Shown: piece by piece, positions 6,815 through 24,180 of the stretch
Layout of the letters: every line of letters begins with the position of its first letter
How positions within the stretch are numbered: position 1 is the stretch's first letter
NCBI GenBank assembly: GCA_020073105.1
Contig: JAIQFW010000015.1
Location: 1-35,957, forward strand
Direction: 5' to 3'
From: Terriglobia bacterium
GTDB lineage: Bacteria; Acidobacteriota; Terriglobia; Terriglobales; Acidobacteriaceae
DNA: 35,957 nucleotides
Position numbers and translations under genes: made by a program
The notes under the pieces: generated by a model
The model's input: only the letters and a program-made list of their open reading frames with translations
Databases searched by the model: none
Told to the model about the DNA's origin: nothing

Positions 6815-6863
6815 ATCAAGTCTGGTTTGACAATGCAGTTTTCTGGGTTTGGAGCGTGGTGTG

Positions 6864-10700: not shown

Positions 10701-11047
10701 CCGATCGCCCGAACCTCGTTGGAGACCCCAACGCCGGGCCGCACACGGTTGCGAGTTGGTTCAACACGGCAGCCTTTCAGGCCCTCCCCCCTTCCGGTGG
10801 TTTTGGTAATGCAGGAAGAAACATTGTCCGTGGACCGACTCTTAAGGCTGTCGACCTGTCAGTTTTCAAGAATTTCAATATCCAGGAAAAGTGGAAGGTC
10901 CAATTCCGAGCTGAGTTCTTCAATCTCTTTAACCACCCGAACTTCCTGCCGCCGGTCAACGATATCAGTTCACCGACATTCGGTCGGATTACGGAAACCA
11001 GCACAGATGCGCGAGAGATCCAATTTGGACTGAAAGTGTCGTTCTAA
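7721..11047 (+). CDS. TonB-dependent receptor, Oar-like with carboxypeptidase-regulatory domain
   Basis: Outer-membrane protein of 1108 aa, of the kind abundant in Acidobacteriota, proposed to import large or scarce substrates using TonB energy. A signal peptide with cleavage after SHA (residues 28-30) is followed by a carboxypeptidase-regulatory beta-sandwich (about 33-115: GTIVGAVHDQ, AGATITIKNAQTG, YYTASELPTGQYEV). The plug-like region contains LPLNKRDFFQLAVLQPG, NNYTVLDGG and GRGGGAVINIVTKSGANQFHG. A long beta-barrel ends in the terminal strand EIQFGLKVSF with a C-terminal Phe, as expected for outer-membrane assembly. The start at 7721 is chosen because it follows an AGGGGGG ribosome-binding stretch and gives a clean signal peptide; a TTG at 7688 would bury it. 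It lies 143 nt after the regulator and before the catabolic enzymes, suggesting it imports their substrate. No ABC or MFS permease is seen in the window. Confidence 0.93.
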   Translation: MKMHAGNGARLILVSLVVLTLVGLSQKSHAQGTGTIVGAVHDQVGAAMAGATITIKNAQTGVSRTVGTDANGYYTASELPTGQYEVEAQSRGFGTVVRTGINLLLAQTARVDFTLKVSQVEEKIVVSEDAPLVDTQSASLGNVEVSQRIEELPLNKRDFFQLAVLQPGVLPPYAGRGSIGTPQVSGALESQPQVNGLRESNNYTVLDGGFITDPYFNTATVVPNPDAIAEFKIQTNLTSVRYGRGGGAVINIVTKSGANQFHGGAYEFFRNKVFDARNYFFDKVPALNRHQFGVNVGGPIQKDKNFIFVSYEGLRQIRGEAINAVVPSVANRNGDFSSSPAGSIINPFTNLPFSGPLNFDPTLINPLAQKVLNLYPIPNTDSNGDGIVNDQDTLWSGAPIGRQQSDQGVVRWDDSLTLRQNIGARYVYQNQTALKNFQRFAFSGPISVPGFPTQDRSTTSNLTAWHILAGTQFTNDIRFTYQHNNVVFGRPKSGLGRLPFGFTFPQAGQTGLGDVFPQFGIGGYSSIGNADGDVFRVYQVYQFQDTVTYVHGKHNFTAGAEVNRFIMDSQAYFVRMGIYFSLGFFSFNPVADMLLGMPSFVSGALGDPARNFRSTGFNWFVEDSYRLHPRFTLTYGLRYEMQTAPTEVHNRLAAFSPENAAAGTISKLHPEAPAGMVFAGDPGFPRSVIATDKNNFAPRLSFAWDLTGKGTTSLRGGFGIFYDVAPIIPYADSSLNPPEFPLYFYTPDPFNPTTFANPITSNPDLPQNQADADKPGTTVLPFSSLFGPGIHNRSPYVKQWNLSLQRALTSDIGVTVAYVGNSATKLLGSVETNQPVFIPGQSTFANAQDRRPYPLLGLIYDHGTRFASNYNGLQISATKRMSHGVSFVSAYTWSKTIDYNSQAITYYHILGHPVFPQNSYDLKAERGLSSFDVPHRVVFSGTWNLPGPGKNANAVTRMLLGDWETNGIVSLNSGYPFTVVDSANPSTTGEYGPTDRPNLVGDPNAGPHTVASWFNTAAFQALPPSGGFGNAGRNIVRGPTLKAVDLSVFKNFNIQEKWKVQFRAEFFNLFNHPNFLPPVNDISSPTFGRITETSTDAREIQFGLKVSF

Positions 11048-11082: not shown

Positions 11083-12462
11083 ATGTCGACCCAGGCCAGT
11101 CAGACCAAAAGAACGCTCATCCGGAACGGGACCATCATCGATGGAACTGGCAAGCCTCCTTTGAAGAATGCATCCGTTTTGGTGGAGGGTGACAAGATCG
11201 TCGCCGTAGGAGCCGACGTGAAGGCGGATGCCAGCGCACGCGTGATCGATGCCGCTGGAAAGACCATCATGCCGGCTCTTATTGACGGCCACTGCCACAT
11301 CAGCTACGGAGACGTGCGCACGCAGGAGGAGTCAGACATCTGCGCTAGTCGTGAGTACAGGGCTATCCGTGCTGTGTGGAATGCCCAGAAGGTGCTGCGA
11401 GCGGGCGTAACCTCCATCTGTGATCCTGGCAGCACCTGTATGGTTTCTGTCGCGGTGCGTGATGCCATCTACTCAGGCATGTTCGAAGGCCCCAGAATAT
11501 TTGCCGCCGGGCCGTTCTTGACCAGCTACAACGGAATCGCGGACTACTTTCCGACCTGGGTAAATGTGCCCACCGGAATCGGGGTGCTGACCAACACTCT
11601 TCCGGAAATGATCACCGAGGTGCGCAAACAGGTGAAGGAGGGAGCGGACCTGATCAAGGTGGCAGCCAGCGGCGACATTAGCAATCCAACTGCGGGCGCC
11701 GACACCTCATCCCTCTCCTTGGAGGAACTGACAGCAGTTGCAAAGGAAGTGCACAGATTGGGGCGGAGGGTAACCGCGCATGCCCGCGCTGGCTTATCTG
11801 CGGCAGATTGTTCGCGGGCTGGGTTTGATTGGGTTATGCATGGCACCCTGATGACCGATGAACACCTCGATGTCTTGCTGGCAAATAAGACCCCGCTCAT
11901 GCCGAGCCTGACATACCTGACCAACGCGGTGGAATTCGGCAAGGATTGCAGCCTCCCCCAATCCATGATTGATGGCTGCAAGTGGGAGTTGGACCGTGCC
12001 ATCCCAATCTTATCCAAGGCCCACAAAGCTGGCCTGCCGCTACTGATCGGCTCCGAAAGTGGCTTTGCTCTGATTCCCTACGGCCACTGGCACGCCAGAG
12101 AACTTGAAACCTATGTGAAGTATTTGGGTTTCACTCCCATGGAAGCTATCGTTGCCGCCACCAAGTTGAATGCAATCACCGTTGACCTTGCCGGCCAGAT
12201 CGGTACGATCGAGCCCGGCACGCTGGCTGACGTGTTGGTCGTCGACGGTGACCCTCTCGCCGATATTTCTGTCCTGCAAGATCTACGAAAAATCCTTGTT
12301 GTGATGAAGGCTGGTGAGCTCGTCGATCTGGATCGACCTTGGCCCACGAAGAAGGACTGGAGTTTTGAACAGACCATCACGTTCGGTTGGAGACTGGCAG
12401 AAAATCCGGCGGTCAGAGCTCTGAGTACCGGCTCCAAGAGATCTGGCGAGGTTGCTGCCTAG
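11083..12462 (+). CDS. Metal-dependent amidohydrolase (imidazolonepropionase/prolidase-like)
   Basis: 459-aa amidohydrolase-superfamily enzyme expected to hydrolyse a C-N bond in a cyclic or linear amide. The N-terminal beta-sandwich (RTLIRNGTIIDGTGKPP) leads to HCH (His70, His72). The likely carboxylated lysine is Lys192 in LIKVAASGD, and further ligands are His233 (VTAHARAG) and His253 (WVMHG). The position usually holding the catalytic Asp (GTDSG) reads GSESG, so Glu325 replaces it. The family tail TIEPGTLADVLVVDGDPL is intact. AAGGAGG precedes the ATG. It lies 35 nt after the receptor gene, with the FAH-family gene directly following. In this setting it may open a ring or deaminate or deacylate an intermediate; the substrate is unknown. 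Confidence 0.9.
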   Translation: MSTQASQTKRTLIRNGTIIDGTGKPPLKNASVLVEGDKIVAVGADVKADASARVIDAAGKTIMPALIDGHCHISYGDVRTQEESDICASREYRAIRAVWNAQKVLRAGVTSICDPGSTCMVSVAVRDAIYSGMFEGPRIFAAGPFLTSYNGIADYFPTWVNVPTGIGVLTNTLPEMITEVRKQVKEGADLIKVAASGDISNPTAGADTSSLSLEELTAVAKEVHRLGRRVTAHARAGLSAADCSRAGFDWVMHGTLMTDEHLDVLLANKTPLMPSLTYLTNAVEFGKDCSLPQSMIDGCKWELDRAIPILSKAHKAGLPLLIGSESGFALIPYGHWHARELETYVKYLGFTPMEAIVAATKLNAITVDLAGQIGTIEPGTLADVLVVDGDPLADISVLQDLRKILVVMKAGELVDLDRPWPTKKDWSFEQTITFGWRLAENPAVRALSTGSKRSGEVAA

Positions 12463-12504
12463 CGCAGTGCGCGCAGGATCCAAGCAGCACGGTCATGGGT
12501 GGAT

Positions 12505-13290
12505 ATGAGATTTGCAAGATTTGCTTACAAGAAAAAGGTTTCCTACGGGATCGTAGATGGCGAGGTCGTCCGCCCCATTGAAGGTGACATTTTCAGCGAC
12601 CCGCGGACTGACGGTCACCCAATACCGATCCGTGAAGTGAAGTTGTTGGTGCCCACAGTGCCGACCAAGGTTATAGCCCTGGGAATGAACTATCGTAACC
12701 ACGCAGCGGAATTGAAGCTCGAAATTCCTGATGAGCCGGTGCTGTTCTACAAGCCCCTTTCGTCTCTGATCGGGATGCACGATTGTATCCAATATCCCCC
12801 TCAAAGTCACCGCGTGGATTACGAGGCAGAGATGGCTTTTGTGATTGGACAGCCAGCCAAGAACGTCCCCGTGGCACGGGCGTTGGAATATGTACTGGGT
12901 TACACCTGCTTTAATGACATCACCGCACGCGACATCCAGTTCAAGAAACCTCCCATCGAGTTCGTCAAGTCCAAGAGTTTCGACACCTTTGGTGGGGTGG
13001 GTCCGTGGATCGAAACTGAGGTGGACGCTCGTAACCTGGCGCTAGAGTGCTTGGTCAATGGGGTCGTCAAGCAGACGGGAAATACCGGTGACCTTATTTT
13101 CGGGGTGGCCGAGATCTTGAGTTATATCTCCAATATCATGACGTTGTGTCCGGGTGACATCATCGCTACCGGCACACCTTCAGGAATCGGCCCCCTAACA
13201 GTCGGGGACGTGGTGTCTGTGCGCCTGGAGGGCGTTGGGACGCTGGAGAACATGGTTGTCCCTCAACCGAAAACTGCGGAGGCAAAGTAG
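12505..13290 (+). CDS. Fumarylacetoacetate hydrolase (FAH) family protein
   Basis: 261-aa enzyme of the FAH superfamily (fumarylpyruvate, acylpyruvate and 2-oxo-hept-3-ene-dioate enzymes), which cleave, isomerise or decarboxylate dicarbonyl acids at the end of aromatic pathways. The catalytic core starts at GMNYRNHAAEL (60-70). Metal ligands Glu107 and Glu109 (VDYEAEMAFVIG) and Asp138 (FNDITARD) are present, as is Lys157 in KSFDTFGGVGPW. The C-terminal core TGTPSGIGPLTVGDVV is intact. Start ATG 12505 fits the family N-terminus (MRFARF); GTG 12499 is two codons upstream. It lies 42 nt after the amidohydrolase and 3 nt before the RidA-like gene. It probably acts on a ring-cleavage product late in the pathway. 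Confidence 0.9.
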   Translation: MRFARFAYKKKVSYGIVDGEVVRPIEGDIFSDPRTDGHPIPIREVKLLVPTVPTKVIALGMNYRNHAAELKLEIPDEPVLFYKPLSSLIGMHDCIQYPPQSHRVDYEAEMAFVIGQPAKNVPVARALEYVLGYTCFNDITARDIQFKKPPIEFVKSKSFDTFGGVGPWIETEVDARNLALECLVNGVVKQTGNTGDLIFGVAEILSYISNIMTLCPGDIIATGTPSGIGPLTVGDVVSVRLEGVGTLENMVVPQPKTAEAK

Positions 13291-13293
13291 CGA

Positions 13294-13725
13294 ATGTCGC
13301 CAACATCGAAAACAAAGGGAAAGTCTGGACGGCTCGAACGGCAGGTTATCAAGGAAGGCCACTTCGACAAAATACTTAACACACATTATTCCGAGGGCAT
13401 CCGGGTCGGCAACCTAGTGTTTGTGGCGGGGCAACTTGCAGTTGACGACCAACTTAACCTGACCGGCAAGGGTGATCCAGACAAGCAGGCTCGCAAGGTG
13501 TTCGAGAATATGAAGGGCATCCTAGAAGAAGCTGGAGCGACGATGCAGGATGTCGTAATGCTCAGTCTGTACGTCACTGACATTCGTTTGATCTCGAAAA
13601 TCGCGCAGGCGAGGCGCGACTATTTTGGTTCGAACCGGCCGGTAGCGACGCTGGTGGAGGTCAGTAAACTGGCACACCCTGATGCCATGGTGGAAGTGAA
13701 TGCAATCGCGGTGATTAACCGCTAG
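13294..13725 (+). CDS. RidA/YjgF-family protein lacking the canonical arginine
   Basis: 143-aa Rid-family protein. The fold signature is clear (VGNLVFVAGQLAVD, ARKVFENMKGILEEAGATMQDVV, YVTDIRLI, VEVNAIAVINR). In enamine/imine deaminase RidA, an Arg in the PARSCVEV motif is needed for hydrolysis. Here the same place reads PVATLVEV, so Ala118 replaces it, while the Glu at 135 is kept. It therefore belongs to a divergent Rid subgroup, like those found in catabolic operons of aminomuconate or pyrimidine type, where the role is often deamination or hydrolysis of a pathway intermediate. There is a GGAGG ribosome binding site inside the end of the preceding gene, 3 nt intergenic. An extra basic N-terminus (about 18 residues) precedes the fold. 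Confidence 0.88.
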   Translation: MSPTSKTKGKSGRLERQVIKEGHFDKILNTHYSEGIRVGNLVFVAGQLAVDDQLNLTGKGDPDKQARKVFENMKGILEEAGATMQDVVMLSLYVTDIRLISKIAQARRDYFGSNRPVATLVEVSKLAHPDAMVEVNAIAVINR

Positions 13726-13754
13726 GCTCGGAACGAAGGCGGGCAGGAGACTAT

Positions 13755-16121
13755 ATGGCGTATATCGGACAAAGGGTATTGCGGAAAGAAGACTACCACA
13801 TCCTGATGGGGCGGAGTCGGTTCGTTGCCGATATGAAGCTGCCGGGCATGCTGTATGCCAAGGTTCTTCGTAGCCCGTTTGCCCACGCGCGAATTAAAAG
13901 CATGGACAAGAGTGCGGCTGAACGCCTTAACGGAGTAGTGGCAGTTGTGACCGGCGAGGACATCAAGGACAAGGTTGCCTACTGGGGGCAGATCGGTACG
14001 GGATGGCCGGTGGGAGACCGCCGTGCGCTCACCATTGACAAGGTTCACTTTGTTGGCGACGAAGTCGCGGTGGTGGCGGCAGAGAATCCCTATGCCGCGA
14101 TGGACGCTTTGGAGCTTATCGAAGTCGACTACGAAGAGTTGCCTGTGTACACCGACCCGGAAAAGGCCATGCAGGCTGAGGCCGAGTTGATCCATCCCGA
14201 ACTAGTGGAGCAGCGGATCATTGAGAGCAATATCCTTTCCCGATACAAGCTGCGCGCCGGTGATATCACTAAGGCGGAGAAGGAGGCGGACTTGATCGTG
14301 TCCGGGCGTTTCTATTCCAATCGCCCGGTTTGTAACGCATTGGAGCCGCACGGGGTACTGGCGAGCTACGACCAGTACCTGGACAAGCTTACTGTCTGGT
14401 CTTCGACCCAGGTGGCGCATCTTGTACGGGATGGACTCTCCGAAGTACTCCGTTACCCGGCGAATAACATCCACGTCATGGTTCCGGACATGGGTGGCGG
14501 GTTTGGTTCAAAGGCGGAGCTGTTCGCCCACGAAGTTCTCGCGGCATACCTCTCCTTAGTTACAAAGCGCCCTGTCTCCCTCATCCTGGACCGCACAGAA
14601 GTGTTTCAGGCGTGCACATCCCGCTGTTCGCAGATCCACTATGCCGAGCTCATGCTCAAGAAGGATGGCACGTTCATCGGTTACCGCAGCAAGATCGTTC
14701 AGGACCAGGGTGGGTACGCGAGCTGGGGTACACAAGTCATCCAGATCGGAACCCATGTCGGAATGCTCCCCTACAAGTACCCCAATGTGTGGGTAGACGG
14801 TGTTGACGTGTACACCAACAAGAATCCGGGCGGGGCCTATCGCGCCTTCGGTGTGCCCCAGACCAGCTACGTTCGCGACTCGTTGGTCCACATGGCCGCG
14901 GTGAAGCTGGGAGTGACGCCCGAGAACTTAATGTTGAAGAACACGGTCAAAGGAGACGAATGTCCCTACACCATGGCGAGCGGCCAGGTAATTGACAGCA
15001 CCGGTATCGACGCAGCGATCGAGAAGGTGATGGAAGAGGTGAAACGGTTGGGTTGGCAGACGAACCGGAAACCATACCAGGGCATCGGGTGGGGCTGCAC
15101 GCTGAAGCACAGCAGTTGCCGCCACCCGCAGATTGATACGGATTACGACTCGGTCCGGGTTCGGATCGAACCCGACGGCACCGTCACGGTGTTCACCAGC
15201 GCCTGTCCCCACGGGCAGGGAATCGAAACAACCCTGGGACAAATCTGCGCCGACCAGGTAGGAGTCAGCCTGGACAAAGTGCGGGTCATTGGCAACGACT
15301 CGCAAGGGCCACACGGTCTTGGAACATGGGGGAGTCGCACAATCACCATTACTGGCAGTGCGCTTAAGCGAGCCGGAGATGTGATTAAGGAGAAGTTGTT
15401 CAAGGTCGCAGCCTTCAAGCTGGAGGTGGGAGAGGGGGACCTCCAGATTGCCGAAAATTGGATTTCCGTCAAGGGAGTTCCGTCCAAGAAGATCTCGGTC
15501 CAGGATGTGGCGATACTCTGCCATTTTCATACTCACGACCTGCCGCCCGGTATGGAGGCGGGTCCAATCGAGACGACCCAGTCGTACGACAGCCCGACTA
15601 CGCGCTTGGACGAGAACGGTCGCGGCAATATGGTGGTCAGCTACAACGGCGCCGCGCATGCTGCTTTAGTGCAGGTTGACCCTGGCACCGGGAAGGTGGA
15701 CATTCTCGACTATCTAATGGCTGATGACTCAGGCGTGGTCATTAATCCAATGATCGTGGAAGGACAACATCAAGGGTCGGTGCCCTTTGGGCTGGGGCAA
15801 GCCTTGGGCGAGGATTTAATTTATGACGAGAATGGTCAGCTTCTGAACGGAAACTATCGCGACTATTACATTCCGCTCGCGACCGACGTCCCGGACTTGC
15901 GCAAGTTCTACGACTGTGGAGTTCCGTCGCGGGTTACCCCTTTGGGCCAAAAGGGGGCCGGCGAATCCGGTAACGTGCCTCCGCTGGCAGTGGTAGCAAA
16001 TGCGGTAGAAGACGCCACTGGCGTCCGAATCACGGAATTGCCGGTGACCCCAGACAAAGTGCTGTTGGGGATAAAGAAGGCAAAGACTACGCGGCCGGGC
16101 TCCAATGGTGGCCGCAGATGA
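13755..16121 (+). CDS. Molybdenum hydroxylase large (molybdopterin-binding) subunit, xanthine dehydrogenase family
   Basis: 788-aa catalytic subunit of a three-component molybdenum hydroxylase that would hydroxylate an N-heterocycle or aldehyde with water and pass electrons to 2Fe-2S and FAD partners. N-terminal part: GQRVLRKEDYHILMGRSRFVAD. Cofactor loops include MGGGFGSKAELFAHE, GGAYRAFGVPQ and CPHGQGIETTLGQIC. The essential C-terminal Glu is present as Glu737 in QKGAGESG. The GGAYRAFG loop is that of xanthine dehydrogenase or hydroxybenzoyl-CoA reductase relatives and is not the CO-dehydrogenase AYRCSFR loop, so it is not CoxL. A GCAGGAG ribosome binding site precedes ATG 13755. The FAD and 2Fe-2S subunits lie 1.5-2.5 kb downstream, separated by a hydrolase and coxG. 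No signal peptide is visible, so it is probably cytoplasmic. Confidence 0.94.
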   Translation: MAYIGQRVLRKEDYHILMGRSRFVADMKLPGMLYAKVLRSPFAHARIKSMDKSAAERLNGVVAVVTGEDIKDKVAYWGQIGTGWPVGDRRALTIDKVHFVGDEVAVVAAENPYAAMDALELIEVDYEELPVYTDPEKAMQAEAELIHPELVEQRIIESNILSRYKLRAGDITKAEKEADLIVSGRFYSNRPVCNALEPHGVLASYDQYLDKLTVWSSTQVAHLVRDGLSEVLRYPANNIHVMVPDMGGGFGSKAELFAHEVLAAYLSLVTKRPVSLILDRTEVFQACTSRCSQIHYAELMLKKDGTFIGYRSKIVQDQGGYASWGTQVIQIGTHVGMLPYKYPNVWVDGVDVYTNKNPGGAYRAFGVPQTSYVRDSLVHMAAVKLGVTPENLMLKNTVKGDECPYTMASGQVIDSTGIDAAIEKVMEEVKRLGWQTNRKPYQGIGWGCTLKHSSCRHPQIDTDYDSVRVRIEPDGTVTVFTSACPHGQGIETTLGQICADQVGVSLDKVRVIGNDSQGPHGLGTWGSRTITITGSALKRAGDVIKEKLFKVAAFKLEVGEGDLQIAENWISVKGVPSKKISVQDVAILCHFHTHDLPPGMEAGPIETTQSYDSPTTRLDENGRGNMVVSYNGAAHAALVQVDPGTGKVDILDYLMADDSGVVINPMIVEGQHQGSVPFGLGQALGEDLIYDENGQLLNGNYRDYYIPLATDVPDLRKFYDCGVPSRVTPLGQKGAGESGNVPPLAVVANAVEDATGVRITELPVTPDKVLLGIKKAKTTRPGSNGGRR

Positions 16122-16189
16122 GCGATAGGCGCGGCTACCTGCATGAGTCAGGCCTTCGATCATCGGTCGCCTAGAAAGGAAATAAAACG

Positions 16190-17023
16190 ATGCCAAACGC
16201 AAAAATAAACGGAGTCAATCTCTACTATCAAGTGGAGGGCGAGGGTGAACCGGTACTCTTCATCATGGGAACCGGTCTGACACACGCCTTGTGGAGCCGG
16301 CAGATCGATGCGTTCAAGCACAAGTACCAATGCATCAGTTATGACAACCGCGGCACCGGCGAGACTGACCGCACGAAGGACGGACACACCGTTGCTAATT
16401 ACGCGGAGGATGCGGCTGGCTTACTCGACCACCTGAAAGTGTCGAGTGCTCATGTTGCCGGCTGGTCGCTTGGATCCTGCATTGGCCAGGAACTGGCAAT
16501 CCATCATCCCGACAAGGTCCGGTCTCTCATCCTGATTGCAACCTGGTGCCGGCCGTATCCGTTTCTGCGTCGTCGATTTGAGGTTCAGACCGAAATTGCG
16601 AAGCTGGGAAATCAGCGTCTTCTGGGCGAATATTCAGTACTGCACCTGTTTCGTGCAGACCATCTCGATGAGCACGACGATGAGGTGTTGCAGTTCCAAC
16701 GGCGTTCCCTGGAGGGCCCGGGCCGGTCACCGATGGAGACCATGATTGCGCACTACCGCATGGATATTGAGCATGACACCGCGGAGAGGCTCTCACAGAT
16801 CAAGGTGCCGACCTTAGTGCTAGGTGGCGAAGACGACGCGCTGATACGTGCGCCGTACCAGGAGGAAGTGCATCGTCGGATAGCGGGATCGGAAATTAAT
16901 TTGATACCGAAGGCCGACCACATGGCCCTCGCGCTGATACCGGACCAGGTGAACAGGATCGCACTAGATTTTCTGGAACGACGTTTTGGCAAGCAAGCTG
17001 GCCCCAAGGCTCGAGCATCTTAA
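16190..17023 (+). CDS. Alpha/beta-fold hydrolase
   Basis: 277-aa cytoplasmic serine hydrolase. Nucleophile Ser93 is in GWSLGS, the acid is Asp215 or Asp216 in GGEDDALI, and the base is His244 in KADHMAL; the oxyanion region is FIMGTG and the family motif YDNRGTGETD is present. Length and layout match the meta-cleavage-product hydrolase, enol-lactonase and N-acyl hydrolase type of alpha/beta enzyme. AAAGGAAA precedes the ATG. It sits inside the molybdenum-hydroxylase operon between the large subunit and coxG, so it should act on the hydroxylation product or a ring-opened form. The precise reaction cannot be stated. Confidence 0.9.
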   Translation: MPNAKINGVNLYYQVEGEGEPVLFIMGTGLTHALWSRQIDAFKHKYQCISYDNRGTGETDRTKDGHTVANYAEDAAGLLDHLKVSSAHVAGWSLGSCIGQELAIHHPDKVRSLILIATWCRPYPFLRRRFEVQTEIAKLGNQRLLGEYSVLHLFRADHLDEHDDEVLQFQRRSLEGPGRSPMETMIAHYRMDIEHDTAERLSQIKVPTLVLGGEDDALIRAPYQEEVHRRIAGSEINLIPKADHMALALIPDQVNRIALDFLERRFGKQAGPKARAS

Positions 17024-17043
17024 CGTGTCGGTAAGGGAGTTGC

Positions 17044-17661
17044 ATGCATTTCGAAAAGGAGTTCGTGCTGAAAAAACCTCTGCAAGAGGTGTGGACATTC
17101 GTCGTCACGCCGGAAACGATTGCTCCATGCATTCCAGGGGTCGAGTCGGTCGAGACAATCGATGCGACTCACTACCGGGCGAAAGTGAAGGTGGCAGTGT
17201 CGTTCGTTACCGCGACTTTTATGCTCAATGTGGAAATCATCGAGCGCCGCGACCCGATGTTCTTGAAGAGCCGTATCAAAGGCAAGGACAGCGGTATCGG
17301 CAGCTCGATCAGCGCGGAAACGACGTTGGAACTCATGTCTCTGTCTGAACTCGAAACCCGCGTCAAATATGGCGCTAATTTTGTCTTTACGGGTCAAGTT
17401 GCGTCCCTGGGGCGCTCGATCATGCAGGCCAAAACCGAAGAGCAGACCGCTCTTTTTGTGAACAATCTGCGCCGTAACATCGGGGAAGAAGGCGCCCAGG
17501 ACGATGAAGTCAAGAAGGTCGGTGTAGGCCGTATGGCACGCATGTTGGCCCATGATGTGGGCGCAGCGGTAAAAGATCGCTTTGCAGGTGCTGGTTCCGC
17601 TCCGGGCAAAACCTTTGCAGGCACTGGTTCCGCTCCGAGCAAGAACGAGGAGACCCCATGA
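17044..17661 (+). CDS. coxG: CoxG-like SRPBCC protein with repetitive C-terminus
   Basis: 205-aa protein of the carbon-monoxide-dehydrogenase subunit G family, a START-like fold that in other bacteria helps to place the molybdenum enzyme at the membrane. The core covers residues 1-150: FEKEFVLKKPLQEVWTFV, IPGVESVETID, FTGQVASLGRSIMQAK. The tail holds two 11-residue repeats (FAGAGSAPGKT and FAGTGSAPSKN) encoded by 33-bp units at 17581-17646. It starts 20 nt after the hydrolase, and its TGA overlaps the ATG of the FAD subunit (ATGA), implying coupled translation. The cox name is by homology; this operon does not encode CO dehydrogenase. Confidence 0.9.
   Translation: MHFEKEFVLKKPLQEVWTFVVTPETIAPCIPGVESVETIDATHYRAKVKVAVSFVTATFMLNVEIIERRDPMFLKSRIKGKDSGIGSSISAETTLELMSLSELETRVKYGANFVFTGQVASLGRSIMQAKTEEQTALFVNNLRRNIGEEGAQDDEVKKVGVGRMARMLAHDVGAAVKDRFAGAGSAPGKTFAGTGSAPSKNEETP
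17581..17646 (+). repeat. Two 33-bp tandem repeat units in coxG
   Basis: Units 17581-17613 and 17614-17646 begin with TTTGCAGG and share most bases (TGGTTCCGCTCCG is identical). They are in frame and add an Ala/Gly/Ser/Pro-rich linker. The slight divergence suggests an older duplication that could vary in number between strains. Confidence 0.8.
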
Positions 17662-18536
17662 GGAGCTTTGAATATCTCCGTCCCACCAGTCTTGATGAGG
17701 CAGTGAAGCTGATGGCTAAGCATGGCCGTAAAGCCCGTGTCTTGGCAGGAGGCCAGTCGCTGCTCAACATGATGAAACTGAGAATTGCCAGCCCCGAGTA
17801 CCTGGTGGACCTCTGCGAACTGGATGAACTGACCACCGCCGAAGCGGATTCCCGCCAAGGCCTGAGGATCGGAGCCATGGTTACCTACCACCAGTTGCAG
17901 AAGTCGGGGCTCCTCAACTCCGCATACGGGATGGTTGGCGACGCGCTCGAGGTAATCGCGGATGAGCAGGTACGCCATGTCGGCACGCTCGGAGGTTCCT
18001 GTTGTCAGGCTGACCCGCACGGCGACACGCCCAATGTGGTGGTGGCGCTGGAGGCAGAAATGGAGGCTGTCAGCAGTAAAGGGCGACGCCTTATTCGGGC
18101 CGGTAAGTTTTTTGCGGGGCTCCTGGAGACTGCACTGGCCAGCGACGAGATTCTGGTCAACATCCGCTTGCCACAACAACCTGCTTCCACCGGGAGCGCG
18201 TACGAGAAGTTTGCCTGGCGGAAGGGGGATTACGCGATCATTTCCGCGGCCAGCCTGATTACTTTGGGCAACGGAGGCCAATGTGCACGAGCGAGCATGG
18301 TGATCGGTTCGGCGCGTTCCAGTCCACTGGTACTGGGGCGGGCACCAAGTGTGCTAGTCGACAAGAAAGTCACCCCTGAAGTGATTGCCAAGGCAGCCGA
18401 GGCCGCCTTCGAAGAGGTTGAACCGGAAGCTGACGCCATCTACGGTTCATCCGAGTACAAGAAGGAACTGGTGCGTACCCTGGCCGAGCGTAGCTTGCTT
18501 TCCGCCTGGAAACGTACGCAGCGGGGGATCAACTAG
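17658..18536 (+). CDS. Molybdenum hydroxylase FAD-binding (medium) subunit, CoxM/XdhB type
   Basis: 292-aa flavoprotein subunit that carries electrons from the 2Fe-2S subunit to the acceptor. The FAD-binding motifs are AGGQSLLNMMKLR (30-42) and GTLGGSCCQADPHGD (109-123); the C-terminal CO_deh_flav_C-like region contains ARASMVIGSARSSPL. The start is fixed by the ATGA overlap with coxG. The gap to the iron-sulfur subunit is 9 nt. Full length for the family. Confidence 0.93.
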   Translation: MRSFEYLRPTSLDEAVKLMAKHGRKARVLAGGQSLLNMMKLRIASPEYLVDLCELDELTTAEADSRQGLRIGAMVTYHQLQKSGLLNSAYGMVGDALEVIADEQVRHVGTLGGSCCQADPHGDTPNVVVALEAEMEAVSSKGRRLIRAGKFFAGLLETALASDEILVNIRLPQQPASTGSAYEKFAWRKGDYAIISAASLITLGNGGQCARASMVIGSARSSPLVLGRAPSVLVDKKVTPEVIAKAAEAAFEEVEPEADAIYGSSEYKKELVRTLAERSLLSAWKRTQRGIN

Positions 18537-18545
18537 GAGACACTT

Positions 18546-19049
18546 ATGCCCAGGGTTTCATCGAGGATTAATGGAAAGCTGTACACAGCGGAAATTGATC
18601 CACGCACATTGCTGCTCGACTTTATCCGCGACTATGCGGGGTTGACTGGCTCCAAGCGAGGCTGCAACGAGGGGAAATGCGGCGCCTGTACTGTGATGGT
18701 CGATGGGCTCACAGTCAAATCGTGCAATCTCCTCGCCATGCGGGCGCACAATAAAGAGGTGCTTACAATCGAGGGCTTGGCTACCGATGGCCACCTGAGC
18801 CCCTTGCAGCAATGTTTCCATGAAAACCATTCGCTACAATGCGGATTCTGCACGGCAGGCTTCTTGATGTCGGCCAAGTACTTGTTGGAGCATAATGCAA
18901 AGCCCAGCGACGGTGAAATCCGTGAGTCCATTCACGGGAACGTCTGCCGTTGCACGGGTTATCAGAAGATCGTGGAGGGAATCCAAGCTGCGGCCCAACG
19001 CCTTCGAGCTGGGCGGGAGGAGCCGGTGGTTGCCAAGGTTGGCACCTAA
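18546..19049 (+). CDS. Molybdenum hydroxylase 2Fe-2S (small) subunit, CoxS/XdhC type
   Basis: 167-aa electron-transfer subunit with two 2Fe-2S clusters. The plant-ferredoxin-like cluster is bound by Cys40, 45, 48 and 60 (GCNEGKCGACTV). The second cluster, in the four-helix domain, is bound by Cys99, 102, 134 and 136 (CGFCTAGF and CRCTGYQ). All eight cysteines are present, so the protein should be functional. It has no twin-arginine signal, so the complex is probably cytoplasmic. It lies 9 nt from both neighbours. Confidence 0.95.
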   Translation: MPRVSSRINGKLYTAEIDPRTLLLDFIRDYAGLTGSKRGCNEGKCGACTVMVDGLTVKSCNLLAMRAHNKEVLTIEGLATDGHLSPLQQCFHENHSLQCGFCTAGFLMSAKYLLEHNAKPSDGEIRESIHGNVCRCTGYQKIVEGIQAAAQRLRAGREEPVVAKVGT

Positions 19050-19058
19050 CCCGCGCAT

Positions 19059-19955
19059 ATGATTCAGGGTGTCCATGAAATCGAGCTGCGCATGCATGAG
19101 AATGGCTACGTCTCGGATCAGGCGATTGCCACTTCGATCTTTTTGCTGATGGAGCTCAAGAAGCCGATCCTTATTGAGGGACATGCCGGAGTTGGGAAGA
19201 CGGAAGTAGCTAAGGTTCTGGCGAAAATACTCGACACCGAGTTGATCCGCTTGCAGTGCTACGAAGGATTAGATGTTTCGACCGCTCTCTATGAGTGGAA
19301 TTATCAAAAACAAATCCTGCGGATGCGCCTGGAGGACGGCTCCAGCCATTCGGTTGAGGAGAAAGAAGAGGTTATCTTCGGCCCGCAATTCCTGCTGAAG
19401 CGGCCCCTGCTCTCAGCCATCACGAACCCTGACCGAAGCGCGGTCCTGCTCATCGACGAAGTTGATCGTGCCGACGAAGAATTCGAAGCCTTTCTGCTTG
19501 AAGTCCTTTCCGATTTTCAGGTTTCGATTCCAGAACTGGGGACGATCAAGGCGACTCATATCCCTTATGTCATTCTCACCTCGAACCGGACCAGGGAACT
19601 GAGCGACGCTTTGCGGCGCCGTTGTCAATACCTTTGGATCGACTATCCCAGCTTTGAAAAGGAACTTTCGATTCTGGAGCTGCGGCTACCCGGGATCAAC
19701 CCGAAACTAGCGCGACAGATCACGGCGTTCATGCAAAGGATCCGCACCAAGAGCCTCTTGAAGAAGCCCGGAGTCGCGGAGACACTCGACTGGGCCGCCA
19801 GTCTGCTGCTGTTGCATCGCGACTGGTTGGACCGGGATTCCGTGGAAGCCACCTTAGGGTGCATTTTCAAGGATATTCACGACCTTCAGCGCGTTTCCAA
19901 GGATCAGCTGAACGAGGTGCTGGCCGAAGTAGAGGCAGTTCAAAATGGACCCTAG
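19059..19955 (+). CDS. coxD: CoxD-like MoxR-family AAA+ ATPase
   Basis: 298-aa AAA+ chaperone. In CO-dehydrogenase systems CoxD acts in maturing the molybdenum-copper centre; in wider MoxR families it works with a VWA partner. Walker A GHAGVGKTE is at 41-49, Walker B LLIDEVDRAD at 130-139, sensor LTSNRTREL follows, and the arginine finger region DALRRRCQYLWIDYP is intact. Its last 11 bases overlap the start of the VWA gene, the standard MoxR-VWA pairing. Its presence beside a non-CoxL enzyme implies a general role in molybdenum-enzyme maturation (inference). Confidence 0.93.
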   Translation: MIQGVHEIELRMHENGYVSDQAIATSIFLLMELKKPILIEGHAGVGKTEVAKVLAKILDTELIRLQCYEGLDVSTALYEWNYQKQILRMRLEDGSSHSVEEKEEVIFGPQFLLKRPLLSAITNPDRSAVLLIDEVDRADEEFEAFLLEVLSDFQVSIPELGTIKATHIPYVILTSNRTRELSDALRRRCQYLWIDYPSFEKELSILELRLPGINPKLARQITAFMQRIRTKSLLKKPGVAETLDWAASLLLLHRDWLDRDSVEATLGCIFKDIHDLQRVSKDQLNEVLAEVEAVQNGP

Positions 19956-21156
19956 TTTCCTAGAGGCGTTGGGCGGTGCACTTCAGCCGTCGGGATACCG
20001 CAAGGTGTCGGCCCGGCAACCCGAGGGGGACCTGCCGCAGAACATGCTCCAATTCTGTGCTTTGTTGAGGAAACGGGGGTTCATGGCCGGCACGGCGGAA
20101 GCGATGGAAGCGCTGCGCGTCTTGCCGCACATCGATCTGGCGGACTGGCGGGGGTTCTATTTGGTCCTGCGGAGCTTGTTTGTCTCGCGCCGAGAGGAGC
20201 TCAATGGGTTCGATGCACTCTTTCATTCCTTCTGGACAGGCTGGGGAGGATTCGAACAGAGTGCGCATCAACTCTTCGAAACGCCACCCGAGCATACCGG
20301 ATCTCCCACCAGTCAGAACCACCTTGCGGAAAAGGAGGGCACGGCTGACCTTGCGCCCGATGGGCACAACCCGAATGAGGAGACCTCAATCGCCTTGTAC
20401 AGCCCCGAGGAAATTCTCGCGGGACGGCTGTTCAGCCGCATTGAGCAAGATGAGCTGAAGGAGATGGAGAAGAGAATCAAGCGACTAAGCCAGCGATTGG
20501 CGACCAAGCCGGGGCGGCGTATGCGCGTCGGACGCCGGGGACATGGTGTGGATCTGCGAAGGAGCCTGCGCCACAGCCTCGGATTTGGCGGCGACATTGT
20601 GACGCTGGTCCGGAGACAGCGTCGCCTGCGGCGGCTCCGTCTGGTGTTGTTGCTGGACGTCAGTCGGTCCATGGATGTTTATTCGTCTCTTCTGCTCAAG
20701 CTGATTTATTCCCTGCACAATCTTAGGGGTAAGACTGAATCATTCGTATTTGGAACCAACTTAAAACGTGTGACGGACTGTTTCAGATCCGCTGATATCA
20801 ACACCGCCCTGGTGAACCTTTCCCGCCAGGTTCCTTTCTGGTCGGGCGGAACGCGTATCGGGCACAGTTTCCGGCTGTTTAACCAGAAATATGCCCACAA
20901 AGTTCTAACCACCCACACCGTGCTGATCATCCTGAGCGACGGCCTCGACACCGAAAAAGCTGAGGTGGTGGCTGAAGAGTTGGCGATCATGAAGCAAAGG
21001 GTTGCCAAGTTGATCTGGCTAAATCCCCTGTCTGATACGCCCGATTATGAGCCTGCAGCCGCAAGCATGGCTGCGGCTCTGCCCTACATTGATGTGTTTA
21101 CATCGATCAACCGGCTGCTTTGGGGAAAAAGCGGGCCGGCAGCGCAAACTGCCTGA
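19945..21156 (+). CDS. coxE: CoxE-like VWA-domain protein
   Basis: 403-aa partner of the MoxR ATPase. The N-terminal CoxE region includes QNMLQFCALLRKRGFMAGTAE and LFHSFWTGWGGFEQ. A highly charged middle (EMEKRIKRLSQRL, then the Arg-rich RRMRVGRRGHGVDLRRSLR) leads to a VWA domain with the MIDAS motif DVSRS (Asp238 onward), TRIGHS and LSDGLDT. It would bind a metal and the target protein during maturation. It overlaps coxD by 11 nt; a GAGG site sits upstream of its ATG. Confidence 0.92.
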   Translation: MDPSFLEALGGALQPSGYRKVSARQPEGDLPQNMLQFCALLRKRGFMAGTAEAMEALRVLPHIDLADWRGFYLVLRSLFVSRREELNGFDALFHSFWTGWGGFEQSAHQLFETPPEHTGSPTSQNHLAEKEGTADLAPDGHNPNEETSIALYSPEEILAGRLFSRIEQDELKEMEKRIKRLSQRLATKPGRRMRVGRRGHGVDLRRSLRHSLGFGGDIVTLVRRQRRLRRLRLVLLLDVSRSMDVYSSLLLKLIYSLHNLRGKTESFVFGTNLKRVTDCFRSADINTALVNLSRQVPFWSGGTRIGHSFRLFNQKYAHKVLTTHTVLIILSDGLDTEKAEVVAEELAIMKQRVAKLIWLNPLSDTPDYEPAAASMAAALPYIDVFTSINRLLWGKSGPAAQTA

Positions 21157-21168
21157 CGAGGGGATTTT

Positions 21169-21560
21169 GTGTATTCGGAACTGGTTCGCGAACATTATCA
21201 GCACCCGCGAAACGTCGGTACTCTTCCGAACCCGTCCGGCACAGCCATGGTCAAAAGTCCATTCGACAGCGACACCGTGTTGGTAACGCTAAGAATCGAG
21301 GACAACCGAATCGTGGATATCCGCTTCAAGTGCGTGGGCTGCCCTGTGGCCATCGCTAGTTCTTCCATCGCCACCGAGATGGTCATGGGGAAGCCGGTGG
21401 AGGAGGCTTACGCGCGCTCCAAGGAAACGTGGCTGCGGCGCTGGGTGGTATGCCCGACTACAAAATGCTCTGCAGCAATCTCTCTCCGGATGCGATCAGG
21501 CTGGCCATTGACGATTGGAGAGCTCGCGTAATTGAGGGCGCTGCCCATAAAGGAGTTTGA
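21169..21560 (+). pseudogene. NifU/IscU-like Fe-S scaffold, interrupted by a frameshift
   Basis: Starts at GTG 21169 after a GAGGGG site. Residues 1-86 fit the NifU_N/IscU fold (YSELVREHYQHPRNVGTLPN, FKCVGCPVAIASSSIATEM). The frame then changes: from 21429 the family sequence resumes in another phase (VAAALGGMPDYKMLCSNLS, DAIRLAIDDWRAR) and ends at TGA 21558-21560. One missing base near 21427-21429 explains the break; read straight on, the first frame ends at 21531 with an unrelated tail. The joined product would be about 130 aa, the normal IscU size. Of three expected cluster cysteines, the second (GC in CVGC) and third (MLCSNLS) remain, while the first place (usually PxCGD) reads PFDSD. The cause could be a real mutation, a sequencing error or slippage. 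It lies 12 nt after coxE and 6 nt before the XdhC gene. Confidence 0.8.
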
Positions 21561-21566
21561 GACACG

Positions 21567-22436
21567 ATGTCGACGGGGCTGTATCAAAAGGCAGGCGAAC
21601 TGGCAGCACAGCGGGTACCGTTCGCCGTGGCCACCGTTGTCCGAGTTGAGGGTTCCACCTCCGCCAAGCCGGGCGCGAAAGCACTCATTGATGCGGAGGG
21701 CAGGGTTCTCGCCGGCTGGGTGGGTGGTGGGTGCGCGGAGACGGCCGTCCGCAGCCAGGCTCAGAAGTGTCTTGCAGAGGGCAAGTCCGAGACAATCACG
21801 CTCGACATGATGGATGAAGTGCTTGGTGTTGGCATGCCCTGCGGAGGACTGATGGACGTCTTCATCGAACCTGTTATTCCGAAGGCCACCTTGTTAGTTC
21901 TCGGACATGGACGCATTGCCGAAACCCTAGCGGAACTTGGGTATCACCTGAATTTTTCTGTCACAGTAAGTGACCCTGGAGCGACCCGAGACAAGTTTCC
22001 GCATGCCGATACCTTGATTAATGACGATATCGATTTCGATGCGTGCAAAGTGACACCTGCAACGTGTGTGGTGATTGTTACCCAACATAAGAGCGACCAC
22101 CTTTGGCTGCAAAAGGCCCTACAGGGGAATGCCTCTTATATTGGGCTCGTTGCCAGCCGGAAAAGATCGAGGCTGGTGCTGGATTACGCCCTGGCGGAAG
22201 GGGTAAGTCCTGAAAAACTGAACTGCGTATCGGCCCCAGCAGGTTTAGATCTTGGTGCGGCTACGCCGGAGGAGATTGCCCTCAGTATCATCGGCGAGAT
22301 CGTTGCTTTGAAGAGAGGCGGGGATGGTCGTCCTCTGCGGCAAAAAGCTGACCAAGATGACGACGGGAGCACGCCGTCGCAGGGAGTGCGTGAAAAGCGC
22401 GGAAAGGTGATTTCGCAGTGCGAGAGCGGTTCCTAA
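21567..22436 (+). CDS. XdhC/CoxF-family molybdenum-cofactor maturation protein
   Basis: 289-aa protein that in related systems binds the molybdenum cofactor, helps its sulfuration and inserts it into the large subunit. The N-terminal XdhC/CoxI domain has VEGSTSAKPGAKALI and WVGGGCAETAV. The C-terminal Rossmann domain has LLVLGHGRIAETLAELG, VIVTQHKSDHLWLQKAL, IGLVASRKR and APAGLDLGAATPEEIALSI. The start is preceded by AAGGAG, which lies inside the end of the frameshifted NifU-like gene, so the two were probably translated together. Full-length and apparently intact. Confidence 0.92.
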   Translation: MSTGLYQKAGELAAQRVPFAVATVVRVEGSTSAKPGAKALIDAEGRVLAGWVGGGCAETAVRSQAQKCLAEGKSETITLDMMDEVLGVGMPCGGLMDVFIEPVIPKATLLVLGHGRIAETLAELGYHLNFSVTVSDPGATRDKFPHADTLINDDIDFDACKVTPATCVVIVTQHKSDHLWLQKALQGNASYIGLVASRKRSRLVLDYALAEGVSPEKLNCVSAPAGLDLGAATPEEIALSIIGEIVALKRGGDGRPLRQKADQDDDGSTPSQGVREKRGKVISQCESGS

Positions 22437-22498
22437 GAATGATGTTATCTGTGGTTGAGATGAGAGCTGGGCAATCGGCCGTTCTTTGAGGAGACAAG

Positions 22499-22927
22499 AT
22501 GACTAAACGCAGGTTGTTTACGATCACGTTCTTGCTGGTTCAACTTGGCGTTCCGGCAGTAGCTCAGCAGCCGGAAATCAAGAAAGGCTCCATCCACTAT
22601 ACTTCGCCCACTTCAGGCAAAGAAATGTTCATGAGTTACTGTGCTGTCTGTCACGGCAAGGACGGCAAGGGAAACGGCCCTGCGGCCGCCGCGCTTAAGA
22701 TTCCGCCCGCCGACCTGACGACCCTCACAAAGCGGAATGGTGGGAAATTTCCAGCAGCCCATGTTTCCAGCACTATTCTTGGCGAGGCTGACGTACCCGC
22801 CCACGGGTCAAGGGAGATGCCTATCTGGGGTCCTCTTCTGCGGATCTTGGACACGCATGGTGACCTGATAGTCCGGCAACGCGCTGTGAATCTTACGGAG
22901 TACGTCCAGTCCTTACAAGAAAAATGA
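22499..22927 (+). CDS. Exported monoheme c-type cytochrome
   Basis: 142-aa periplasmic cytochrome c. The signal peptide (MTKRRLFTITFLLVQLGVPA, cleavage near VAQ) is followed by the heme motif CAVCH (Cys48, Cys51, His52) and the likely axial Met107 in REMPIWG. A GAGGAGA ribosome binding site precedes ATG 22499. It is the last gene of the island, 62 nt after xdhC. By analogy with cytochrome-linked molybdenum hydroxylases such as nicotinate dehydrogenases, it may pass the enzyme's electrons to the respiratory chain, although a cytoplasmic enzyme would need an intermediary. The link is inference. Confidence 0.9.
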   Translation: MTKRRLFTITFLLVQLGVPAVAQQPEIKKGSIHYTSPTSGKEMFMSYCAVCHGKDGKGNGPAAAALKIPPADLTTLTKRNGGKFPAAHVSSTILGEADVPAHGSREMPIWGPLLRILDTHGDLIVRQRAVNLTEYVQSLQEK

Positions 22928-23013: not shown

Positions 23014-24180
23014 CTAGCCTGCTTGCCGTGCTTCGGAGGAAGCCCCTTGTTGGTGCCAGTGCTGAACAATTTCTGCCAGAATGCTCAGTGCGATCTCTTC
23101 CGGAGTGACCGCTCCAATTTGCAGCCCTGCAGGCGACCTAAAACTTGCTAGTCTCTCTGCGGATACGCCTTTCGACTCGAGATTCCGACGAATCTCAGAC
23201 GCTCGTTTCTTGTTTGAGACGAGTGCGATGTATTCCGTGTTCGTGGCCAGGGCCTCTTCTATGGCGTCCTCATCAAATCGGCCGCGGCTAGCCACGACCA
23301 CAGAAGTCCGCCTGCTGATCGGCAGGGAGGACAAGTTCAGCACATGAACGATTCGGTCGGCTCCGGGAAAATCCTGGATGCCCCCCAAGGGATCAACCAC
23401 CGTAACCGTAAAGTGCAACTGCTTGGCTAATGTAACCAGCGTCCGTACGACCGGTTCGCGACCGACGACCAACAACTCCGGCTGGGCCGACGGAGAATCT
23501 CCAGCAGCTTCGAACTGCTTGTCCTCCACACTCTCGTTCTCCGACAGTGCGGTCGGATCATTCTTAATCTCGGCGCAGGCTCGGGACAATCTCTCAAATT
23601 CTTCCGGGCTGTCAGCATCAATCAGGATTCCGGCATCATCTACCGACACCTTGAGAATGTTCTTTACCCGGCTTCCGAAAATCGCTCGGCAACCAATATC
23701 TCCCTCGATGGCCATAGCATCTGCGAAAACTGAGCGGTCCAACAGTACCGGATTACCTCGAAAGCCCCTATACATAGGGATGGCCACCTGAGGCTTAGAT
23801 TTCTTGTATTCATCGATAAGGCGATCAATCGTGGATGGTCTAACAAGCGGCTGATCTGCCAGCATGACTAGGGCAGCTTCCGACTGCGGGTTGACGTTCG
23901 CCAGCCCAGCCCGCAGAGAAGAGCTCATGCCCTCAGCGTAGGCCGCATTTATTACCACCCTCGCGTTGTCTAGAGAGACTTTGCCTCTTATCGCTTCCGC
24001 TTCGAAACCAAGAACCACGATGCACTCATCTACTTGCGAATTCCGGGCAGTCTCCAACACCCGACTGAGCAGCGTTGCTTCACCGAGCGAAAGCAGCTGC
24101 TTAACTTGTCCCATCCGCTTGGACATCCCGGCGGCTAGAATAACCGCGGAAACCCGTGACCGTTCGCTTTGCGCTGGCAT
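23014..24180 (-). CDS. Fusion of MocA-like nucleotidyltransferase and XdhC-type Rossmann domain
   Basis: 388-aa protein convergent with the island. Residues 10-205 form a MobA/MocA-like NTP transferase: VILAAGMSKRMGQVKQLL holds the LAAGxSxRMGxxK nucleotide site, and MLADQPLVRPSTID supplies a metal Asp. This activity would attach CMP to molybdopterin for hydroxylases. After a polar linker (about 206-232), the remainder matches the C-terminal half of XdhC (VVVASRGRFDEDAIEEAL, YIALVSNKKRASEIRRNL, SPAGLQIGAVTPEEIALSI). Its nucleotide loop reads VVGREPVVRTL, lacking the glycine pattern seen in the stand-alone XdhC (LGHGRIAETL). The N-terminal XdhC domain is absent. The fusion couples cofactor synthesis to insertion, presumably for the neighbouring enzyme. 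Confidence 0.9.
   Translation of the reverse strand: MPAQSERSRVSAVILAAGMSKRMGQVKQLLSLGEATLLSRVLETARNSQVDECIVVLGFEAEAIRGKVSLDNARVVINAAYAEGMSSSLRAGLANVNPQSEAALVMLADQPLVRPSTIDRLIDEYKKSKPQVAIPMYRGFRGNPVLLDRSVFADAMAIEGDIGCRAIFGSRVKNILKVSVDDAGILIDADSPEEFERLSRACAEIKNDPTALSENESVEDKQFEAAGDSPSAQPELLVVGREPVVRTLVTLAKQLHFTVTVVDPLGGIQDFPGADRIVHVLNLSSLPISRRTSVVVASRGRFDEDAIEEALATNTEYIALVSNKKRASEIRRNLESKGVSAERLASFRSPAGLQIGAVTPEEIALSILAEIVQHWHQQGASSEARQAG

Follow-up and report, generated by a model that had tools for sequence, protein, structure and literature searches.

The window analysed here, the whole stretch of 35,957 nt, is the entire contig C240 of a draft genome (G000; 5.14 Mb in 308 contigs, 97.6% complete and 1.2% contaminated). 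It carries an IscU-like gene within a row of genes on the plus strand (13755-22927), which encode in order a Mo-binding large subunit, an alpha/beta hydrolase, CoxG, a FAD subunit, a [2Fe-2S] subunit, an AAA ATPase, a VWA protein, the IscU-like protein, XdhC and a cytochrome c-like protein (Table 1). None of the 13 NCBIfam models listed, CO dehydrogenase models included, gives the large subunit a score that reaches its cut-off; the best is that of glyceraldehyde dehydrogenase alpha, with 517 bits where 790 are required. No XdhC_CoxI match was found in the MobA-XdhC_C fusion on the minus strand. The xdhC gene begins with an ATG at 21567 and is preceded by AAGGAG at 21550-21555, and the frame -1 TGA of the IscU-like gene (21558-21560) ends 6 bases before this start. 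At 11083-17023, genes for an amidohydrolase, a FAA hydrolase, a RidA-like protein, the Mo hydroxylase and the alpha/beta hydrolase follow one another, with a gene for a GntR/FCD regulator upstream of the row at 6849-7577; together these look like a catabolic cluster.

Table 1. Features of the IscU-like locus and its surroundings in window coordinates
Feature	Position	Strand	Basis
Mo-binding large subunit, xanthine-oxidase-type hydroxylase	13755..16121	+	Pfam MoCoBD_1/2
FAD subunit	17658..18536	+	Pfam
[2Fe-2S] small subunit	18546..19049	+	Pfam
CoxD/MadB-like AAA ATPase	19059..19955	+	Pfam, NCBIfam
CoxE-like VWA protein	19945..21156	+	Pfam
IscU-like gene, N-terminal part in frame 0; Asp at first ligand, CxxC at second	21169..21428	+	PF01592, orthologue identity
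-1 frame change of the family sequence (approximate)	21427..21430	+	Orthologue comparison, codon model
IscU-like gene, C-terminal part in frame -1, with third ligand Cys	21429..21560	+	Orthologue identity
Out-of-family tail (WLRRWVV...GELA) that frame 0 would append	21429..21531	+	ORF translation
xdhC, partner gene, XdhC_CoxI and XdhC_C domains	21567..22436	+	Pfam; orthologues at 6 of 7 other loci
MobA-like nucleotidyltransferase fused to XdhC Rossmann domain	23014..24180	-	Profile match

The frame-0 ORF of the IscU-like gene (21169-21531; 120 amino acids, GTG start) matches the NifU_N family (PF01592) with 79.6 bits against a Pfam gathering score of 22 (E-value 2.9e-22), the match being confined to residues 1-92, and in a profile search of the whole genome the gene scored 78.1 against the same model. 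The frame -1 stretch at 21429-21560, which translates to VAAALGGMPDYKMLCSNLSPDAIRLAIDDWRARVIEGAAHKGV, gives no Pfam match alone. Identity to seven orthologous loci, which come from six related genomes, is 58-69% for the N-terminal part and 59-79% for the C-terminal frame -1 part, and tblastn with both pieces found them in a single frame at all the seven loci. A codon model built from 22 pieces of this genome favoured frame 0 over 21169-21428 (+9.5, the other two frames scoring -30.3 and -17.4) and frame -1 over 21429-21531 (+2.8, the others scoring -12.0 and -8.6). With 21429-21560 taken as a whole, frame -1 still led, but weakly, at -0.8 as compared with -11.5 and -19.0. Compositional segmentation over 324 kb of the genome, too noisy to yield a frameshift rate, did not flag the window break at the first setting; the second setting labelled 21450-21574 as non-coding and gave 72 frame pairs, the break being absent among the 27 listed. 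Frames 0 and -1 are both open over 21360-21528 and the exact base of the switch therefore rests on homology; as judged from the orthologues, it lies within a few bases of 21427-21430. The frame break is present in the assembly and is of an ordinary kind. The first-pass annotation had placed a phase switch at about 21428 with the family sequence intact from there to 21560, and had described a single-base break in an otherwise well preserved gene. The position is borne out by homology, with which the codon statistics agree, and the comparison of reading frames that it proposed confirmed the rest, all seven orthologous loci being intact across the break point and constraint being evident on both sides of it.

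In comparisons with six of the orthologous loci, Ka is 0.21-0.33 before the break and 0.15-0.26 after it, with Ks values from 0.64 to 3.23 (not estimable for 3 of 12 comparisons). The ratio of the protein distance to the xdhC distance is 0.81-0.96 for the window and lies inside the range of the intact pairs (0.78-1.05, with one xdhC of just 109 residues); thus, no decay is visible so far. Six neighbouring genes, encoding the large, FAD and Fe-S subunits, the AAA ATPase, the VWA protein and XdhC, each align in a single frame with contig C80 of the related genome G174 (G174:C80), the xdhC comparison spanning 109 residues there and nearly the full length in other loci. CoxG aligned over just 66 of 205 residues and therefore says little on frame integrity. 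Seven genes on another contig of G000 also align with their relatives in one frame, and the assembly is, therefore, not visibly indel-prone. The genus of G000 contains one genome, G000 itself, which leaves the base without a near relative for testing it.

The annotation had considered the break to be recent, a sequencing error or a programmed slip. A programmed -1 slip that yields the full protein would account for the coding constraint on the frame downstream of the break and for a frame -1 stop that suits the operon spacing. However, the overlap at 21360-21528 holds no X_XXY_YYZ heptamer, three single-codon X_XXZ tetramers being found there, the RNA fold of the next 81 bases is no more stable than that of shuffled versions (z = +0.86), and none of the seven orthologous loci needs a slip or is recoded. 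Programmed frameshifting, which calls for a slippery heptamer and a stimulatory structure conserved in the orthologues, was rejected on these grounds and is considered highly improbable, while the recent or artefactual origin stands. With the orthologues intact, no slippery heptamer or unusual RNA fold and no relaxed constraint, either one base was lost recently or the assembly is in error, and as a one-base frame change in the last third the break leaves a gene that is newly inactivated or misassembled. An assembly or sequencing error, the gene being intact in the living organism, is given an even chance; the draft is in 308 contigs, the event involves one base of a gene otherwise intact and relaxed selection is not visible, whereas the single-frame alignment of the six neighbours and of the seven genes on another contig speaks against it. 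Only a shade under an even chance is assigned to the reading that the change is real and recent, and the gene a young pseudogene in the strain. The break is isolated within an otherwise intact region, the window has Ser instead of Cys at residue 64 and its branch is the longest in the clade described below (0.49 against at most 0.31 for the others), all of which favour a pseudogene, whereas a distance ratio inside the intact-pair range does not. A real break would leave the product without Cys102 (numbered, as are all residues here, according to the orthologues, with the first ligand position at 33) and the last helix, and hence probably inactive; the window copy may be dead.

Close relatives of the IscU-like gene were found in six genomes of a family sample of 200 that included its own (G000, G188, G174, G133, G158 and G058), those outside G000 having 61-67% identity, with two copies in G174. 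A search at the genus level added genome G568, with 4 of the 9 genomes in the genus of G188 matching; no further member was found in the genus of G133, where one of nine genomes, G133 itself, matched. In a phylum sample of 396 genomes no further member appeared at that level among the candidates scored (at most 11 per genome), and the best match outside the own genome reached 1.1e-47 (G318, locus L060), the members reaching 1e-70 or better. Of 20 loci found in named genomes, one is a member, L034 from Acidobacteriaceae bacterium CRAIB_MAG56, whose protein is the same as that of G058. Plasmid records gave 95 matches, all of them below 60% identity among the 20 listed. The members thus number eight, the window plus the seven orthologous loci from the six other genomes. 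In a tree of 80 rows and 124 columns, the columns being few for the number of rows, these eight (hereafter D-type) form one clade with a support of 100/97, or 99/93 when L060 is joined. The clade is a small group of IscU paralogues present in some genomes of one family, which the one named member places as the Acidobacteriaceae.

The cluster ligands of this clade are altered in a consistent manner. D33, D35, C55, C58 and C102 are present in all eight members, window included, and Cys55, which makes a CxxC with the second ligand Cys58, is found in none of the 72 other family rows; among the tabulated positions, it is the only one that is Cys in all the members and in no other row. Cys64 is present in seven members, with Ser in the window, and the His before Cys102 (His101) is absent from all eight. 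The region of the first cysteine reads KSPFDSDTV in the window as against APxCGDVM, and the LPPVK-type chaperone motif is replaced by IPEYK in seven members and MPDYK in the window. Six of 48 other rows, the group lacking the third cysteine being set apart, are without Cys33, and two of these, L060 being one, have Asp. The ligand counts and the tree leave out L047, L052 and L053, which are truncated or doubtful, and duplicate copies. The first ligand position had earlier been read as Asp or Phe; the alignment of KSPFDSDTV supports Asp and not Phe. A cysteine at an adjacent position, missed by misalignment, had been named as what would overturn the claimed absence; it was looked for and rejected, since none of the eight members has a Cys close to position 33. 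The absence therefore stands, but it does not mark out a single odd copy: judged across the eight sequences, the lack of the first cysteine is conserved throughout the clade and comes with changes elsewhere.

Ligand changes were also seen in other NifU_N proteins. In another genome of the phylum, a protein with Asp at the first cysteine (L095:8351-8743) immediately precedes a ThiF-family protein (L095:8745-10253). A protein without the first cysteine (L094:9221-9574) adjoins a class-V aminotransferase (9598-10764), possibly a desulfurase, with a NuoG-like gene near. Two proteins from Chloroflexota (L048:5001-5390 and L050:3372-3743) have a gap at the third cysteine.

An AlphaFold model of the intact L034 orthologue, computed with ten relatives, has a pLDDT of 95.1 and the fold of IscU. 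Its 29 best matches in the PDB are IscU/ISCU chains, with SufU following at rank 30, and it superposes on chain C of 4eb5, the IscS-IscU complex of Archaeoglobus, with a TM-score of 0.95 and 50% identity; 4eb5 also ranks first in a sequence profile search. The D-type protein has its length, fold, D35, C58, C102 and K99 in common with IscU and clostridial-type NifU, and differs from them in having Asp for the first Cys, the extra Cys55, no His101 and IPEYK for LPPVK, in being paired with xdhC and in falling under the NCBIfam equivalog cut-offs. The three cluster cysteines that define IscU are reduced to C58 and C102 in all eight members, Asp33 taking the place of the first, and the LPPVK-type motif is not found as such. 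Against the IscU model TIGR01999 (cut-off 192.4), locus L054 scores 95.8 bits and the window frame-0 ORF 68.8, and against the clostridial-type NifU model TIGR03419 (cut-off 187.9) L054 scores 137.2 bits. With the SufU model TIGR01994 (cut-off 92.5) the score was 62.5 bits, with Asp at the acceptor position. SufU, a zinc-dependent sulfurtransferase, shares its superfamily with the D-type protein, for which a role in sulfur transfer is plausible; the D-type protein is without the acceptor Cys and without the insertion of 21-23 residues given for SufU in the available part of PMC10216065. The same part names Cys40 as the sulfur acceptor of the Mycobacterium tuberculosis SufU, and this residue is here equated with the first cysteine of IscU.

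Seven of the eight D-type loci, window included, have an orthologous xdhC as a neighbour, in two arrangements. At six of the seven other loci its product is 54-65% identical to the window XdhC and the two genes are divergent, whereas they are co-directional in the window. In G174:C80, the xdhC adjoining the iscU-like gene is 65% identical to that of the window (over 109 residues before the contig end) and a second xdhC of the same stretch just 41%, which points to a pairing with one particular XdhC. The exception is the second copy of G174 (G174:C82; L055:14006-14443), an intact D-type gene with no xdhC in 17.9 kb. None of 48 other NifU_N loci (L001, L030, L035-L051 and L060-L089 except L066; 2-10 kb each, the first cysteine being absent in six) has an xdhC match with the window XdhC as query at an E-value of 1e-4, a threshold that a very divergent XdhC could escape. 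With flanks made equal at about 1.5 kb, xdhC is found in four of five D-type loci (L005-L009). Among 29 phylum loci besides the window, the six without the first cysteine (Asp, Thr, His or a gap) have no xdhC in wider stretches searched by tblastn, the closest of them (L060/L093) ending about 220 bases from a contig end on one side. The locus L052 (Chromatiales), doubtful and left out of the counts, likewise lacks the first cysteine, and 8.5 kb there gave no match to xdhC.

A separate MobA-like gene adjoins xdhC in G188, G158, G058 and G568, and the window has the MobA-XdhC_C fusion. Mo-hydroxylase genes were found by tblastn with the window genes near three of the eight loci (the window, G174:C80 and G133), some of the stretches being short (the G058 contig is 7.1 kb, and on one side the G568 stretch reaches past the gene by about 1 kb). 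The genomic pairing with xdhC that a part in XdhC-dependent maturation of the molybdenum cofactor (Moco) would entail is therefore present (7 of 8 loci against 0 of 48). Gene order gives good support to the tie of the clade to XdhC, and it is this tie that merits follow-up. The gene had been described as dedicated to this operon; the tie to xdhC holds, but that to a particular operon does not, given Mo-hydroxylase genes at three loci of eight.

The D-type protein is read here as a putative IscU-derived helper for the maturation of molybdenum hydroxylases, which would most likely act with XdhC as a sulfur carrier or a modified Fe-S scaffold. The fuller proposal, held with somewhat less than even confidence, is that the clade comprises IscU paralogues paired with a particular XdhC, that the intact protein hands sulfur to XdhC-held Moco or otherwise serves Mo-hydroxylase maturation, and that the window copy is newly inactivated or misassembled. 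It builds on the frame break, the intact orthologues, the residue changes, the clade, the pairing with xdhC and the IscU-like fold predicted for an orthologue; the canonical iscU next to a class-V aminotransferase elsewhere in the genome and the sulfuration of XdhC-bound Moco by NifS4 in Rhodobacter capsulatus also favour it. The intact protein would dock on a cysteine desulfurase as IscU does, its second and third cysteines would pass sulfur to the cofactor held by XdhC, and this sulfur would be linked to the Mo=S ligand of the Mo hydroxylase. The first acceptor is absent from the D-type protein, the second and third cysteines are kept and an extra Cys lies three residues before the second; this pattern, together with the gene pairing, would fit a persulfide carrier from desulfurase to XdhC, and a modified Fe-S scaffold nearly as well. 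Counted against the sulfur carrier are the lack of a class-V aminotransferase match on the contig, the G174:C82 copy without xdhC and the absence of the acceptor Cys of SufU.

Alternatively, and this is considered doubtful, the protein might be an Fe-S scaffold dedicated to the [2Fe-2S] subunit of the Mo hydroxylase, its ligand set containing Asp or CxxC instead of the three usual cysteines. The predicted IscU fold of the orthologue, the conservation of the potential ligands D33/D35/C55/C58/C102 in the whole clade and the gene for a [2Fe-2S] subunit within the window operon agree with it. However, Mo-hydroxylase genes are found at fewer loci than xdhC (three as against seven of eight, with some stretches short), changes affect the first Cys, the LPPVK-type motif and the His that precedes the third Cys, and a canonical iscU is retained in the genome.

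The transfer of sulfur to XdhC-held Moco may be compared with known systems. According to the available part of PMC2997495, XdhC of Rhodobacter capsulatus holds Moco while NifS4 exchanges an oxygen ligand for sulfur, and NifS4 contacts XdhC directly; IscU occurs nowhere in that text. XdhC and the need for a sulfur supply to XdhC-bound Moco are thus common to both systems, unlike the class-V aminotransferase, for which the window contig gives no match. As NifS4 acts directly on XdhC with no carrier mentioned there, a relay need not be invoked; if XdhC has a conserved partner of the IscU type, this could introduce a further step into the direct route. CoxD-, CoxE-, CoxG- and XdhC/CoxF-like genes around the locus recall the coxDEFG maturation genes of aerobic CO dehydrogenase (PMC4240915, in part), whereas the window large subunit, unlike CO dehydrogenase systems, scores under the CO dehydrogenase cut-offs; the portion available of the same source mentions no IscU-like gene with coxBCMSLDEFGHIK. 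More than one cysteine of Escherichia coli IscU may accept sulfur, Cys37 being proposed as the first, then Cys63, with a possible onward transfer to Cys106 (PMC2854127, in part). In the mitochondrial complex, Cys113, which lies on a fixed helix and is here taken to be the third cysteine, is the biochemically proposed acceptor though the most distant (PMC5668364, in part). Asp39 and His105 also join in zinc binding (PMC4243993, in part). Among the matches listed in a literature search for XdhC, xanthine dehydrogenase or Mo hydroxylases with IscU or NifU, the titles and abstract beginnings describe no such pairing, nor do the available parts of the papers cited here, and NifU has no occurrence in the available texts of PMC2276186 and PMC2432076. 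The XdhC-linked, ligand-altered clade is the part of interest, the frameshift mattering only as a caution for one assembly, and the altered ligand set would be a natural experiment on the role of each IscU cysteine.

G000 holds three NifU_N genes, namely the window gene, an intact canonical iscU on contig C200 that adjoins an iscS-like class-V aminotransferase (one of 16 such matches in the genome, none of them on the window contig) and a paralogue on contig C10 (L099:8587-8946; G000:C10:14586 onward) with Ala at the third cysteine. The order of genes in the C10 cluster is alcohol dehydrogenase, xdhC, MobA-like, HAD, iscU-like, periplasmic-binding-protein-like and NUDIX, with a carboxypeptidase-regulatory-like ORF between the HAD and iscU-like genes. 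This neighbourhood recurs: among 20 of 23 relatives with wider flanks, xdhC is found in 13 and a MobA-like gene in 17, several of the rest being cut by contig ends and the MobA-like gene of L106 being more than 7 kb away. The C10 group (24 rows, support 100/99) stands next to the D-type clade in the tree, the join having just 89/90. Cys64 occurs in 22 of the 24 C10-group rows, in 7 of the 8 D-type rows and in one of the 48 others, the sister row L060. An Acidobacteriota IscU lineage might have been recruited with XdhC to Moco maturation and then have split into two forms, each losing a different cysteine (the first to Asp with gain of the CxxC, the third to Ala) and turning from a scaffold into a carrier of sulfur or metal-sulfur for the Mo=S ligand; this is regarded as rather unlikely, and the shared Cys64 would under it be a mark of the common origin of both XdhC-linked forms. 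Selenium instead of sulfur was also considered as the element transferred and was set aside: a selD match is present in the genome and nothing ties it to the locus. This match (L148; G000:C206:1390-2355; 348 bits) has one in-frame TGA, which suggests a selenocysteine-containing SelD and the use of selenium in the organism.
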